Below, one piece after another: positions 5,861 through 51,882 of a DNA stretch of 54,857 nt. Each line of letters starts with the position of its first letter. The first letter of the stretch is position 1. The notes beneath the pieces were generated by a model. It saw only the letters and a program-made list of their open reading frames with translations, was not told where the DNA came from and did not search any database. The DNA is from Bacillota bacterium. GTDB taxonomy: Bacteria; Bacillota; JAAYKD01. A program made the position numbers and the translations under genes. The stretch covers positions 1 through 54,857 of the forward strand of contig JAAYKD010000074.1 in the NCBI GenBank assembly GCA_012522585.1. Reading direction: 5' to 3'.

Positions 5861-5892
5861 GTAGAGAGAAAATGTATAATATAGGTGATGAT

Positions 5893-6708
5893 ATGAAAGT
5901 AATCAAAAAAGAAAAAACCTTTGATTATGCTTCTTTCAACCTCGATCGCCTGATTCAATTGGTTGATGTCTACGCAGTACCCAAAGAAGAGCTGCCCATG
6001 GCAGAGTTCATCAAACCTCTTTTAGCTGAACACTGTGTAGAAATTGAAAGAGATGGAATTGGTAATGTTTATGCTATCCGCAAAGGGGATCCTAAAGCCC
6101 CTACCGTCCTTTTAAGTGCACATCAGGATACCGTTTTATTTCCACCCCAGGAGAAGTATTATATCGTAGAAAACGGCTATCTGCAATTGAATAAGGACTT
6201 GCTGGAAAGAGAACGCTACAGCCGTGCTTTAAGGCCGGTTGTTCTGGGCGGTGACGATCGTTGTGGTATAGAAATAATTCTCTCAATTTTAGAGACCTAC
6301 GATGGCCCCTTAAACATAAAGGTTATTCTCTCGACCAGAGAAGAAATTGGTGGCGAAGGCATTGCCGATGCCAAGCGTGAATTCTTTCAGAATATTGATT
6401 TTGGTCTAATTCTCGATAGGAAGAACAGCGGTGATATTATCACCAGCATCAACCGCCACAAGCTCTGTACGAAAAAACTCTATCAACATGTTTTACGTTC
6501 CGGTATCAGAACAAATGTCAAAAATTTAAGAGAGACTGTAGGGTCATTTTCCGACGCCTATTTTATCTCCCGCCGTCTCAAAGTTGACTGTGTCAATATC
6601 AGTGTAGGCTATTATCAGCCTCACACCTCCCATGAACGAATCGATTTATATGCTTTCAACGACAGTGTTCGCTGGACTAAAGAAATCCTTGAGTCCTACA
6701 GTTTCTAA
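5893..6708 (+). CDS. Compact M20-like metallopeptidase (peptidase T-like)
   Basis: Translation contains LLSAHQDTV, GGDDRCGIEI, STREEIGGEG, ILDRKNSGD and HTSHERIDL, the metal-ligand/catalytic pattern of M20/M28-type peptidases. ATG at 5893 has SD aggtgat; the ORF track starts upstream at 5872. Confidence 0.75.
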   Translation: MKVIKKEKTFDYASFNLDRLIQLVDVYAVPKEELPMAEFIKPLLAEHCVEIERDGIGNVYAIRKGDPKAPTVLLSAHQDTVLFPPQEKYYIVENGYLQLNKDLLERERYSRALRPVVLGGDDRCGIEIILSILETYDGPLNIKVILSTREEIGGEGIADAKREFFQNIDFGLILDRKNSGDIITSINRHKLCTKKLYQHVLRSGIRTNVKNLRETVGSFSDAYFISRRLKVDCVNISVGYYQPHTSHERIDLYAFNDSVRWTKEILESYSF

Positions 6709-6722
6709 ATTGTTTCGAACAA

Positions 6723-6870
6723 AGTAAAGGCTATTATCAGCCAGACACCTCTCACGAACCCATGGATTTATCTGCTTGCAATTACAGTGTTCCCTGGACC
6801 CAAGGAAATTCTCGAGTCCTACAGTTTTTTAAAGTTGTTTTGAACACAGTAGAAATTAAACTATTATCAG
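6723..6870 (+). repeat. Decayed tandem duplicate of the 3' end of the preceding peptidase gene
   Basis: ggctattatcagcc...acctc.cacgaac..atggattta..tgctt.caa.tacagtgtt at 6729 onward matches 6607 onward with a 122-bp offset. A third ctattatcag is at 6861-6870. Confidence 0.88.
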
Positions 6871-8165: not shown

Positions 8166-8591
8166 TTATTCCGCTTCTTTCTTCTGCTCCACCAATCTTT
8201 TATGAGAGAAAGCTAATAATGATTTATCTTGGCTATATGTTATGCGTTCAAGGGCATCTTCATAGGGGAAAAAGCCGCCTTCAGAAAATCCTTCTTCTAA
8301 ATTAGCTACAGTCTCATCGTCATCGCTGGTCATCAAATACCAAGTAATGCGATTACATACAGGGCGTCGGCGTGAGATTGAATAAAATTCATAGCTGGTC
8401 TGCCCTGCCGGTTCGATAATATCAGCTTTGACACCTGCTTCAAACTGAACTCTTGAAACGGCAACTTCATGAGCTAATTGATCAGTTCTGATAACACCTT
8501 TGGGAAACACCCATTCTTCTTTTTCGTTTTTGAGAAGGAGCACCTTATCTTTGTGAAAGACAACTCCTCCGGCGCAATTGCGGATCAACAT
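8166..8591 (-). CDS. Nudix-family protein with a degenerate Nudix box
   Basis: MLIRNCAGGVVFHKDKVLLLKNEKEEWVFPKGVIRTDQLAHEVAVSRVQFEAGV; Nudix fold signature but not the consensus REUXEE. ATG at 8591 has SD AAAGGAG; the ORF track extends to 8627. Confidence 0.8.
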   Translation of the reverse strand: MLIRNCAGGVVFHKDKVLLLKNEKEEWVFPKGVIRTDQLAHEVAVSRVQFEAGVKADIIEPAGQTSYEFYSISRRRPVCNRITWYLMTSDDDETVANLEEGFSEGGFFPYEDALERITYSQDKSLLAFSHKRLVEQKKEAE

Positions 8592-8670
8592 AATAGTCAC
8601 TCCTTTTGAGTATTTCATTATTAGCATTTAAACATTAGTTTATGTATTTCTATTCTTTTTTAAGGGTCAA

Positions 8671-9186
8671 AATTCCTTCTTTAAAACCAATTGATTTATA
8701 GAATTAGTTTAAATACCAGGACTTCAGTTCTCAGCCCTTTAAGAAAAGCGATTGAGCAAATACATTATTGCCTTACTTGTAGCAAGCTAAGAGAGGAATT
8801 CGCTTTTTAAAACTGGCTGATGTAAAGAATTGGTTTAAATACTAAGACTTAGATTCTCAGCCCTTTAAGAAAAGTGATTAAGCAAATACAATATTGCCAT
8901 AGCTTGCAGCAAAGCTAAGAGGGGTATCCTCTTTTTAAAACTGGCTGATGTAAAGAATTGGTTTAAATACTAAGACTTAGATTCTCAGCCCTTTAAGAAA
9001 AGTGATTGAGCAAATACAATATTGCCATAGCTTGCAGCAAAGCTAAGAGGGGTATCCTCTTTTTAAAACTGGCTGATGTAAAGAATTGGTTTAAATACCA
9101 TGACTCAGATTCTCAACCCTTTAAGAAAAGCGATTGAGCAAATACAATATTGCCATAGCTTGCAGCAAAGCTAAGAGAGGAATTCC
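8671..9186. repeat. Tandem array of about four 126-128 bp units, derived from the 3' end and downstream of the DUF1294 gene
   Basis: The ccctttaaga anchor occurs at 8735, 8861, 8989 and (accctttaaga) 9117. Units beginning 8821 and 8949 differ at only about one position over 128 bp by eye. The rightmost unit is the DUF1294 3' coding end. Confidence 0.93.
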
Positions 9187-9402
9187 ATATTTGAAATCTC
9201 GACGGAGGGTCTTATGTCGGAACAATCTCATGGCAATCATGGCTCCAAATGCTCCGCCAAATTGAGCTAAGCGCCAAAGTGTTCTTTCTTTTATTCTGTA
9301 TTTTTGCTTGACAGCCAAAACTTTATCATAAAAAAACATCCAAATAGTCAGCAAATTAATAGCTATATAAGCATAAATGATACCTTTAATCGTAATTTCC
9401 AT
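9121..9402 (-). CDS. DUF1294 family small membrane protein
   Basis: 93 aa; FFYDKVLAVKQKYRIKERTLWRLAQFGGAFGAMIAMRLFRHKTLRRDFKYGIPLL, the DUF1294 signature (GG..GA..AM..FRHKT). Confidence 0.85.
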   Translation of the reverse strand: MEITIKGIIYAYIAINLLTIWMFFYDKVLAVKQKYRIKERTLWRLAQFGGAFGAMIAMRLFRHKTLRRDFKYGIPLLALLQAMAILYLLNRFS

Positions 9403-40422: not shown

Positions 40423-40567
40423 AGCTTTTAGACACTTACCTGATTTTTCATGTTGAAATGTCCACCCAAGTAATGGGCTACTAAGGTAGCAGCATCCAAG
40501 GATTCAGCATATTCACTCAGGGGAAGAGCTAAAATTCTATCGCAGTTTTGCTGAGCTTACTGAAATA
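40423..40567 (-). pseudogene. Diverged tandem copy of the C-terminal end of the adjacent TrmH-like methyltransferase gene
   Basis: Minus translation of 40428-40556 is AQQNCDRILALPLSEYAESLDAATLVAHYLGGHFNMKNQVSV*, against RQKCDRFVSIPMSNKVESLNVAAAATLVAYYFGEHSRD* of the intact gene; unit offset about 137-145 bp. Confidence 0.85.
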
Positions 40568-40582
40568 AGCTTTTATTGAACT

Positions 40583-41410
40583 TTAATCCCTAGAATGCTC
40601 GCCAAAATAGTAGGCCACTAAGGTGGCAGCGGCGGCAACATTCAAGGATTCAACCTTGTTGCTCATGGGAATAGATACAAATCTATCACATTTTTGTCGA
40701 ACTTCCTCAGATAAACCTAGGCTTTCATTGCCCAAAACATAAACCGCTCTTTCCAATCTTGGTTGTGTAAAGAGATTTGCTGCTGCTTTTTCTGAACTCA
40801 AGCCAATTATTTTATAACCCTTTGCTTTAGCTAAGCTGAGAGCATCGGCGAGTTTTGGGTGAGAATAGATGGGGAATTTGAAAACTGCTCCGGCAGCTGC
40901 TTTGATCAGCAGGGGCTGATTGATTGAAGGCACTCCCTCTTTGGGTAAGAGTAACCCGGAAACACCGGCAGCAGCGACTGAACGCACAATCATCCCTAAG
41001 TTTGCCGGATTGGTCACGCCATCTACAGCTAAAATTGTACTGGGGCCATTTTGATAGTTTAAAAATTTAGGCCAGTCATTCTCCAACTTGCCCAGAACGT
41101 CTGCCACAATGCCTTGATCTTCATTTTTATTTTTTGAAATTCTATGCAGAGCTTCCGGCTCCATCTCCTTAATCGCTATGCCCTTTGCTTGAGCCTTCCT
41201 GACTATAGCCCGAAGAGATTTGCTCTGATTATGCCTGTCTACTAAGATTCTTTCAATCTTAATTTCAGGATGTTGATCAACTAAATCAGAAACGGTTTTC
41301 TTTCCGAAAACCGTTATAAATTTATTAAAGTATTCCTTTTTAGCCAGATATTCCTTTGAATCCTGAAATTTCTTTGTTTTTTTATTTTTCATACTCTTTC
41401 CCTCATCCAA
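40583..41410 (-). CDS. TrmH/SpoU-family RNA methyltransferase
   Basis: 275 aa; VTNPANLGMIVRSVAAAGVSGLLLP, YVLGNESLGLSEEV, IPMSNKVESLNVAAAATLVAYY (motifs 1-3). Confidence 0.93.
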   Translation of the reverse strand: MDEGKSMKNKKTKKFQDSKEYLAKKEYFNKFITVFGKKTVSDLVDQHPEIKIERILVDRHNQSKSLRAIVRKAQAKGIAIKEMEPEALHRISKNKNEDQGIVADVLGKLENDWPKFLNYQNGPSTILAVDGVTNPANLGMIVRSVAAAGVSGLLLPKEGVPSINQPLLIKAAAGAVFKFPIYSHPKLADALSLAKAKGYKIIGLSSEKAAANLFTQPRLERAVYVLGNESLGLSEEVRQKCDRFVSIPMSNKVESLNVAAAATLVAYYFGEHSRD

Positions 41411-48311: not shown

Positions 48312-48411
48312 AATTTATCGCTCAATTCTGATTTAATTCTACTTGTCTTAAAAACACTCAAAGTCAGTCCGACAGAAATCTTCCAAATAGCCAAAATTAT
48401 TACGCCTAAGC
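48295..48411 (-). repeat. Diverged tandem copy of the ftsW 3' end placed between ftsW and murG (116-bp period)
   Basis: atcgctcaattctgatttaatt occurs at 48317 and 48433. The copy translates to ISLGVIILAIWKISVGLTLSVFKTSRIKSELSDKL*, against ftsW ISAGGTSLAISMISVGLILNVSRQVQLNQN*. Confidence 0.87.
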
Positions 48412-48437
48412 TGATCAAAATTCTCTTAATTCATCGC

Positions 48438-49541
48438 TCAATTCTGATTTAATTGGACTTGCCTGGAAACATTCAAAATAAGCCCAACAGAAATCATCGA
48501 TATAGCCAAAGAAGTTCCGCCTGCACTGATAAAGGGCAGAGTGACACCTGTAGCAGGAATAGTCGCCGTTGCCACGCCTATGTTGATTAAAGACTGTAGG
48601 CAAATAGAAATACTCAAGCCCAGAACCAAGAAACTTGAAAAGACATCTTCGGTCTTTCTGGCAAGATAAAAGCAACGCCAGAGAAAAAGAAAATAGGCTA
48701 AAATCAAAACAAATATACCTAAAATACCAAATTCTTCGGCTATGATGGAAAATATAAAATCGCTCATAGCTTCCGGCAAATATCCATACTTCATCAGACT
48801 ATTTCCAGGCCCGACTCCGGTCAATCCTCCATTTACTATAGCATAGAGAGAATGAATGATCTGATAGCCTGTATCGTCGGGATCCGCCCAGGGGTTTCTA
48901 TATATACTCAAACGGTCTAAGCGATAGCTCTTTTTACTGACAACCAAGGCCAGGCCACCGACTCCGGCCAAAGCAAAGAGTATGGTGATTAGCCAGGGTA
49001 AACCTGCTAAAAAAATCATAATTCCGCCAGTCCCTAAGACTAATAACATGGTACCAAAATCCGGTTGAGCAAAGATCAAGAGAGCAGGTATTAAAACTAC
49101 CAAGAGGGATAAAAGAATCGGCCTAAAACCTTTTAGCTGGCCTTTATTTTTGGTAAAGAGGGCTGAAAGCAGGAGAACTACTCCAATTTTCATCAATTCC
49201 GAAGGCATAAAGGTCAGAGAACCTACTTCGATCCAGCGGTAGGCTCCTAATAATTCCATGCCTATACCAGGTACAAAAACAAGGCCCAAAAGGATAAGGC
49301 CCAAAATGTAAATATAAAAGGAAAATTTATAAAACCAGTTTATTGGTATATAGATGGTGATCAGCATCAGGAGCAGTGACAATCCTGCCCATTTAGCTTG
49401 CTGACCGAATTTTATATGGGAATTACCACCGATTAAAGCATCGTTAAAGCCAGTGGAAAAAACGACTATTAAACCAAAACTGAGCAAAAACAGTATCAGA
49501 ATTAATAACCATAAATCGGGTATGGATTTTTTCTTAAACAC
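48438..49541 (-). CDS. ftsW: Cell division SEDS glycosyltransferase FtsW
   Basis: 367 aa; polytopic SEDS protein, GVGPGNSLMKYGYLPEAMSDFIFSIIAEEFGILG, TLPFISAGGTSL. Confidence 0.96.
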   Translation of the reverse strand: MFKKKSIPDLWLLILILFLLSFGLIVVFSTGFNDALIGGNSHIKFGQQAKWAGLSLLLMLITIYIPINWFYKFSFYIYILGLILLGLVFVPGIGMELLGAYRWIEVGSLTFMPSELMKIGVVLLLSALFTKNKGQLKGFRPILLSLLVVLIPALLIFAQPDFGTMLLVLGTGGIMIFLAGLPWLITILFALAGVGGLALVVSKKSYRLDRLSIYRNPWADPDDTGYQIIHSLYAIVNGGLTGVGPGNSLMKYGYLPEAMSDFIFSIIAEEFGILGIFVLILAYFLFLWRCFYLARKTEDVFSSFLVLGLSISICLQSLINIGVATATIPATGVTLPFISAGGTSLAISMISVGLILNVSRQVQLNQN

Positions 49542-50920: not shown

Positions 50921-51882
50921 CCCTTAAGATAAAAAAACAAACCGCTCAAGGTAAAAAACAAACCCCAAGCCCAAAAAACAAAATCTATTTTCCACTCGCT
51001 CCAACCTAGCTCTTCAAAATGATGATGAATCGGACTCATTTTAAAAAGCCTTTTACCACCGGTTCTCTTAAAATAAATTACTTGAATCACCGAAGAAAAT
51101 ATATCGACTACAAAAACTAAGCCAACCCAAACAGCCAAAACTTCCGTTTTTAAAAGCAGGGCAATGGCGGCTAAAGCGAATCCTAAGCCTAATGAGCCTG
51201 TGTCCCCCATAAAAATCTTGGCGGGGTTTCGATTGAATAAAAAAAAGGCCAAGAGTACTCCCATCAAAGCCAGAGACAAAGTCAGCACTTCTAAATCGGA
51301 TTGCCAAAAGGCGACTAAGGCAAAAAAGATCAGTGCGATAAAACTCTGGCCCGAACAAAGCCCATCGACCCCATCGATGATATTGACAGCATTGCTAAAG
51401 AAGACCAGATATAAAAGGGCAAAAATCCAGTAGAAAAAAGAAAAATCGAGAGCTCCAAATAAAGGAAATATATATTGAGTTGAATGATTATTCAAGGCCA
51501 AAAAGATTAAAAACAAAATTGACAAACTGAATTGAAAGAATAATTTTGTTTTTGCCTGCAGACCCTCAGGATCTTTCTTCACCGCTTTGATATAATCGTC
51601 GGCAAAACCCAATATTCCGTGACCTGTTGCTAAAGCTAGAATGATCAAGGTTCTAAAGTCATAATTTCCGCTTACAAAAAATGCACAAGCAGCGGCTGCG
51701 TAAAAAACAATCCCTCCCATGGTAGGAGTTCCGGCTTTCGCATAGTGACTGGCCAAACCCTCTTGACGAATGGTCTGCCCAAATTTCAGCTTGTGCAAAA
51801 AAGGAATTAACAAGGGTATTAAAAGTACACCAATTAAAAATGCTGAAAAAAATGGAATCAAATAATTATTCATCTTGCTCAC
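50908..51882 (-). CDS. mraY: Phospho-N-acetylmuramoyl-pentapeptide-transferase
   Basis: 324 aa; GTPTMGGIVF, FADDYIK, NAVNIIDGVDGLC, FMGDTGSLGLG, SPIHHHFEELGWSE. Confidence 0.97.
   Translation of the reverse strand: MSKMNNYLIPFFSAFLIGVLLIPLLIPFLHKLKFGQTIRQEGLASHYAKAGTPTMGGIVFYAAAACAFFVSGNYDFRTLIILALATGHGILGFADDYIKAVKKDPEGLQAKTKLFFQFSLSILFLIFLALNNHSTQYIFPLFGALDFSFFYWIFALLYLVFFSNAVNIIDGVDGLCSGQSFIALIFFALVAFWQSDLEVLTLSLALMGVLLAFFLFNRNPAKIFMGDTGSLGLGFALAAIALLLKTEVLAVWVGLVFVVDIFSSVIQVIYFKRTGGKRLFKMSPIHHHFEELGWSEWKIDFVFWAWGLFFTLSGLFFYLKGWKL

Follow-up and report, generated by a model that had tools for sequence, protein, structure and literature searches.

Behind the DUF1294 gene of this Bacillota genome lies a tandem array. 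It belongs to a lineage-specific pattern that recurs across the genome: of the genes examined, about 5% are trailed by an echo, a partial copy of their own 3' end. Three older, single-copy echoes of the same kind, missed by an earlier reading that dealt with the single array, lie in the same window, by which we mean the whole 54,857-nt stretch of DNA analysed here. We consider it probable that the array arose as a small tandem duplication and that the genome-wide pattern reflects a raised rate of such duplication together with the selective survival of events that spared the genes. The array and its neighbours comprise the following features.

8166..8627, minus strand: Nudix gene (PF00293), downstream of the array
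8671..8691, minus strand: short repeat TTTTAAAGAAGGAATT past the last unit, resembling the gene-side edge at about 9181-9196 (P = 0.027)
8692..9177, minus strand: tandem array, 3.8 units of 128 bp (TRF and a second repeat finder)
8692..8817, minus strand: U4, the distal unit, 126 bp, with single bases lost at two places in once-coding sequence (alignment)
8818..8945, minus strand: U3, 127/128 identical to U2 (alignment)
8946..9073, minus strand: U2, encoding an LLNHFS-stop remnant, 127/128 identical to U3 (alignment)
9074..9201, minus strand: U1, with the true DUF1294 gene end (stop 9121-9123) and the gap after the stop (alignment, ORF)
9121..9402, minus strand: DUF1294 gene, 93 aa, source of the array (PF06961, E 1e-19)

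The four-unit, 128-bp array reported in the preliminary description is real, being recovered by TRF (8692-9177, period 128, 3.8 copies, 93% matches, score 809) and by the second repeat finder (unit spacings of 126, 128 and 128), with the unit number as in the MAG assembly (201 contigs, 94% complete). As had been proposed, it was seeded from the DUF1294 3' end: the gene finishes within U1 as LLALLQAMAILYLLNRFS and a stop, whilst U2, which spans 9001-9050, and U3 encode the expected remnant peptide. The middle units had been described as differing at about one position and as recent or homogenized, and their near-identity against drifted outer units bears this out, with identities of 111/128 between U1 and U2 and 110/126 plus two gap positions between U2 and U4, so that U1 and U4 are each 86-87% like the middle units and 83% like each other. 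U4 is frameshifted because of its two single-base losses. Bracketing of the array by microhomology, also claimed previously, was confirmed and extended: aattcc starts at both 8671 and 9181, 510 bp apart (126 + 3 x 128), and the pair belongs to a longer flanking resemblance between TTTCAAATATGGAATT at the gene-side edge and TTTTAAAGAAGGAATT beyond U4 (tested against random windows of the contig), the gene-side border TTTcAAAtAtGGAATT recurring past the last unit as TTTTAAAGAAGGAATT in register (offset 0). The stretch behind the gene likewise matches the stretch behind the last copy (score 64, P ~0). A fifth, degenerate unit upstream of Nudix (8592-8691) was rejected as not significant over that whole stretch (6-29% of shuffles did as well), and the short border repeat alone stands. 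Array DNA was present at one place only in its own genome, which rules out a dispersed repeat family (REP/BIME, MITE), and had no match in relatives except a 34-base chance one.

With the DUF1294 array, the window holds four echoes, the other three belonging to the following genes.

6728..6827, plus strand: echo of the M42 peptidase gene (5872-6708) 3' end, 83% identical (flanking repeat P = 0.001)
40457..40568, minus strand: echo of the 3' end of the gene at 40583-41410, 69% identical (gene-end test)
48322..48418, minus strand: echo of the ftsW (48438-49541) 3' end, 76% identical (P = 0.004)

CTATTATCAG occurs three times at the M42 peptidase: on the gene edge, on the copy edge and then again past the copy. 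The ftsW duplication extended into the first codons of murG, and ATCAGTG..GG..GGAAC is common to ftsW and the murG start. The echo at 40457-40568 is the weakest of the four, scoring 57 against a threshold of 56. Elsewhere in the window (50921-50982), a 21-bp short tandem repeat of about three copies was seen at the start of an ORF.

To assess the frequency genome-wide, we compared the terminal 250 bp of every predicted gene against the following 400 bp; a 5' control set the initial 250 bp against the preceding 400 bp. Gene models were simple longest ORFs, called by an identical procedure in all genomes. Across 810 kb of the genome (42%, 572 genes), 3' echoes were detected at 28 genes (4.9%), leaving out a 29th match (L149) that was not at a gene end. 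Echoes at the 5' end numbered at most 4 of 572, perhaps one or two of them real: L112 resembles a dispersed element and L150 overlaps a 3' echo. L112 near 4630 and L150 near 306 carry GGGACTGTCCC-type motifs with a dispersed-repeat appearance. The difference between 28 and 4 is significant (binomial P 1.9e-5), and random placement of duplications with the observed lengths put 78% inside genes and 5.3% at each of the 3' and 5' ends; plain random duplication would not produce so strong a 3' bias. Host genes included transporters, a short-chain dehydrogenase, a ComEC-like protein, FtsW, an M50 peptidase, a semialdehyde dehydrogenase and others; they are unrelated and, together with the orthologue comparison below, indicate that the pattern was not inherited with particular genes.

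Among relatives, a genome of the same family (G001) had 3' echoes in 3 of 235 genes, and the remaining genomes had none at either end of 426 genes (506 kb), differing strongly from the 28 of 572 seen here (Fisher P 1.5e-7). Nine G001 orthologues of echo-bearing genes had no echo, and the echo events are therefore lineage-specific; conversely, one G001 echo gene had an orthologue in the sampled sequence of our genome, also without an echo. TRF arrays with a period of at least 60 bp followed the same distribution, with 21 in 682 kb of the focal genome, 3 in 300 kb of G001 and none in 288 kb of two genomes of the same order (G002 and G003). Fifteen of the 21 contained a predicted gene's 3' end, one of these also reaching the start of the next gene. 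Besides the DUF1294 array, two arrays at gene ends (both G000:C6) were noted in detail. L040 (14005-14515) repeats the end of the heptaprenyl diphosphate synthase component I gene in 3.8 units of 134 bp, the present C-terminus of that protein differing from the one encoded in the last unit, and L065 (17943-18363) has 4.9 units of 85 bp from a ComEC-like competence gene end, each containing a small hairpin, CCTAG...CTAGG.

Echo copies were mostly 45-190 bp long and started 0-120 bp past the stop codon. For linkers long enough to compare, about 12 echoes, including three in the window, showed a match between the stretch from stop to copy and the stretch past the last copy (P ~0), which is the mark of a tandem duplication ending downstream of the gene. 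About six copies began within 6 bp of the stop, and about nine linkers matched neither flank; flanking short repeats reached P < 0.05 in 6 of 27 echoes, four of them in the window, with the M42 peptidase and ftsW/murG cases the clearest. The junctions are thus not uniform, since most echoes had no detectable flanking repeat and those nine or so linkers resembled neither side. A linker derived from diverged upstream gene sequence seemed likely by eye in L067 and L094 and was not general.

Differences between gene and copy numbered 98, 61 and 152 at codon positions 1, 2 and 3, frameshifting indels were common, and the nonsynonymous fraction was 0.52 against a neutral 0.72, where we estimated roughly 0.58 for a constrained gene paired with a freely decaying copy. 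Judged by these substitution patterns, the differences appear consistent with a freely decaying copy beside a constrained gene, and a protein-coding role for the copies was rejected on that overall fit. Two echo copies, L114 152-847 and L157 5109-5549, differed from their genes almost only at synonymous sites (12:1 and 13:3), which is odd for untranslated copies.

Our preferred account of the array, a small tandem duplication, begins with a segment that starts within the DUF1294 gene and reaches into the gap past its stop codon. Two short direct repeats, imperfect and approximately TTTcAAAtAtGGAATT and TTTTAAAGAAGGAATT, would have bounded its duplication, likely through slippage during replication or through a template switch. 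Unequal exchange or gene conversion, allowed by the RecA found in the genome, may then have produced four units in which the middle two stayed nearly identical as the outer two drifted, an order of events suggested by the identity pattern. U1 keeps the DUF1294 gene whole. Genome-wide, the most likely cause would be a raised rate of small tandem duplication with selection for events sparing every gene. It is not obvious that selection alone can produce the preference for 3' over 5' ends, which is not fully explained because, after a duplication at a 5' end too, one gene is still whole. Selective removal of 5' fragments that are truncated yet translated may be sufficient.

A directed process at transcript ends is a possible alternative, to which we give markedly less weight. 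Here replication or repair would stall between the stop codon and the terminator, at a hairpin, R-loop or paused polymerase, and restart inside the gene, so that 3' ends are duplicated preferentially. The 28 to 4 bias speaks for it, as does the position of terminator-like hairpins which, where seen, lay past the last copy and uncopied in 10 cases and were copied in one clear exception (L114:2969); against it, about half of the echoes, the DUF1294 array among them, had no terminator behind them. A standard SbcD hairpin nuclease was not convincingly found in the genome (94% complete; best match 19 bits) and is present in G001 (154 bits), which would suit such a process. The pattern over relatives, however, does not follow the trait, G001 having SbcD and some echoes and G003 having neither, and SbcD loss as a cause is a lead at best. 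That a family-wide mutational process of this kind acts on gene ends strikes us as doubtful; replication or repair would restart within the gene on reaching the gap that separates its stop codon from the following terminator or gene, and would have marked about 1 gene in 20. Two other repair routes were rejected: Ku-type end joining, with Ku absent from the genome and from close relatives, and a loss of flap nuclease as in FEN1/rad27-type mutators, with a PolA-type 5' nuclease domain present.

Assembly artefact, with strain variants joined end to end, is improbable. In its favour, the MAG is fragmented, most echoes consist of two copies at a period close to read length, and in a few copies the differences from the gene are largely synonymous. 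Artefacts of this origin should, however, fall mostly inside genes, as the random placements did, and equally at 5' ends, whereas we observed frameshifted copies, arrays of 3.8-4.9 diverged units and the same pattern in the same-family genome; strain-variant joining could yield two-copy repeats, but not the 3' preference or four to five diverged units.

The suggestion that the array affects Nudix expression found no support, and a regulatory element whose copy number sets that expression is very unlikely. Both genes lie on the minus strand and are therefore read in the order DUF1294, array, Nudix, which is in keeping with such a role. Consensus scans, however, detected no promoter within the array directed at Nudix and no terminator-like site around it, and Rfam returned no match either for the array (E up to 1) or for the whole window, where tRNAs were also absent; one weak promoter-like site per unit, in three units, was found on the opposite strand, pointing away from Nudix. 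The scans were crude, and a weak or unusual element could have escaped them. The Nudix start itself is probably at 8591, as suggested by AAAGGAGTG in front of ATGTTGATC, rather than at the first ATG of the ORF (8627). DUF1294 was not found in same-family or same-order genomes, where Nudix orthologues are present, and at the G001 locus a gene other than DUF1294 sits upstream of Nudix. Since the 810 kb hold about 28 echoes of gene 3' ends, this array among them, the DUF1294-Nudix pairing is probably incidental, and echoes behind genes as unrelated as transporters, dehydrogenases, ftsW and peptidases leave no shared regulatory theme. Going by sequence, the units after U1 look like untranslated filler. 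Least probable of all is that the copies are retrocopies of mRNA 3' ends, which they resemble in being 3'-biased and 5'-truncated: no reverse transcriptase (PF00078) was found in the 94% complete genome, untranscribed-end features are rare in the copies, the terminator of the mRNA 3' end is usually absent, and several have direct repeats at their ends, as in duplication at the DNA level.

A small tandem duplication remains our preferred reading, and it invites comparison with several known systems. In yeast, FEN1/rad27-type mutators accumulate many small duplications, up to about 100 bp, across the genome; the multiplicity is alike, and the PolA-type 5' nuclease of the present genome marks the difference. 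REP/BIME-type repeats also lie downstream of genes, sometimes in tandem, but form one dispersed family, whereas the DUF1294 array unit has no other genomic copy. In the open-access literature, we found no description of gene-3'-end echoes at about 5% of genes, with a 28:4 bias and none in order-level relatives. If confirmed with reads, this genome would offer a natural system in which to ask whether transcript ends are duplication hotspots, and which repair change sets the duplication rate. Short partial copies behind genes can also mislead gene-end annotation and short-read assembly.

Bacterial minisatellites or VNTRs, often located between genes, repeat a unit of tens to hundreds of bp head to tail; the number of units is expected to vary and serves for strain typing (e.g. 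PMC3691591, PMC4045669). The DUF1294 array is likewise head-to-tail with units in this size range, and so falls among them by unit length; unlike them, each array here copies the 3' end of the adjacent gene, and within one lineage such arrays are found repeatedly at gene ends. Spontaneous rearrangements in Salmonella have short direct repeats at duplication endpoints, mostly in much larger events (PMC3411829), a likeness shared by the window loci where a short repeat marks the two ends and the unit borders, including the DUF1294 array with its head-to-tail units and in-register outer border repeat. The difference is that duplications are here kept at about 5% of genes, with a 3' bias and with most junctions lacking a detectable flanking repeat. 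Small tandem duplications as such are already known, and what appears to be new, going by the open-access literature, is that roughly one gene in twenty is trailed by a copy of its own end, with a bias to the 3' side.
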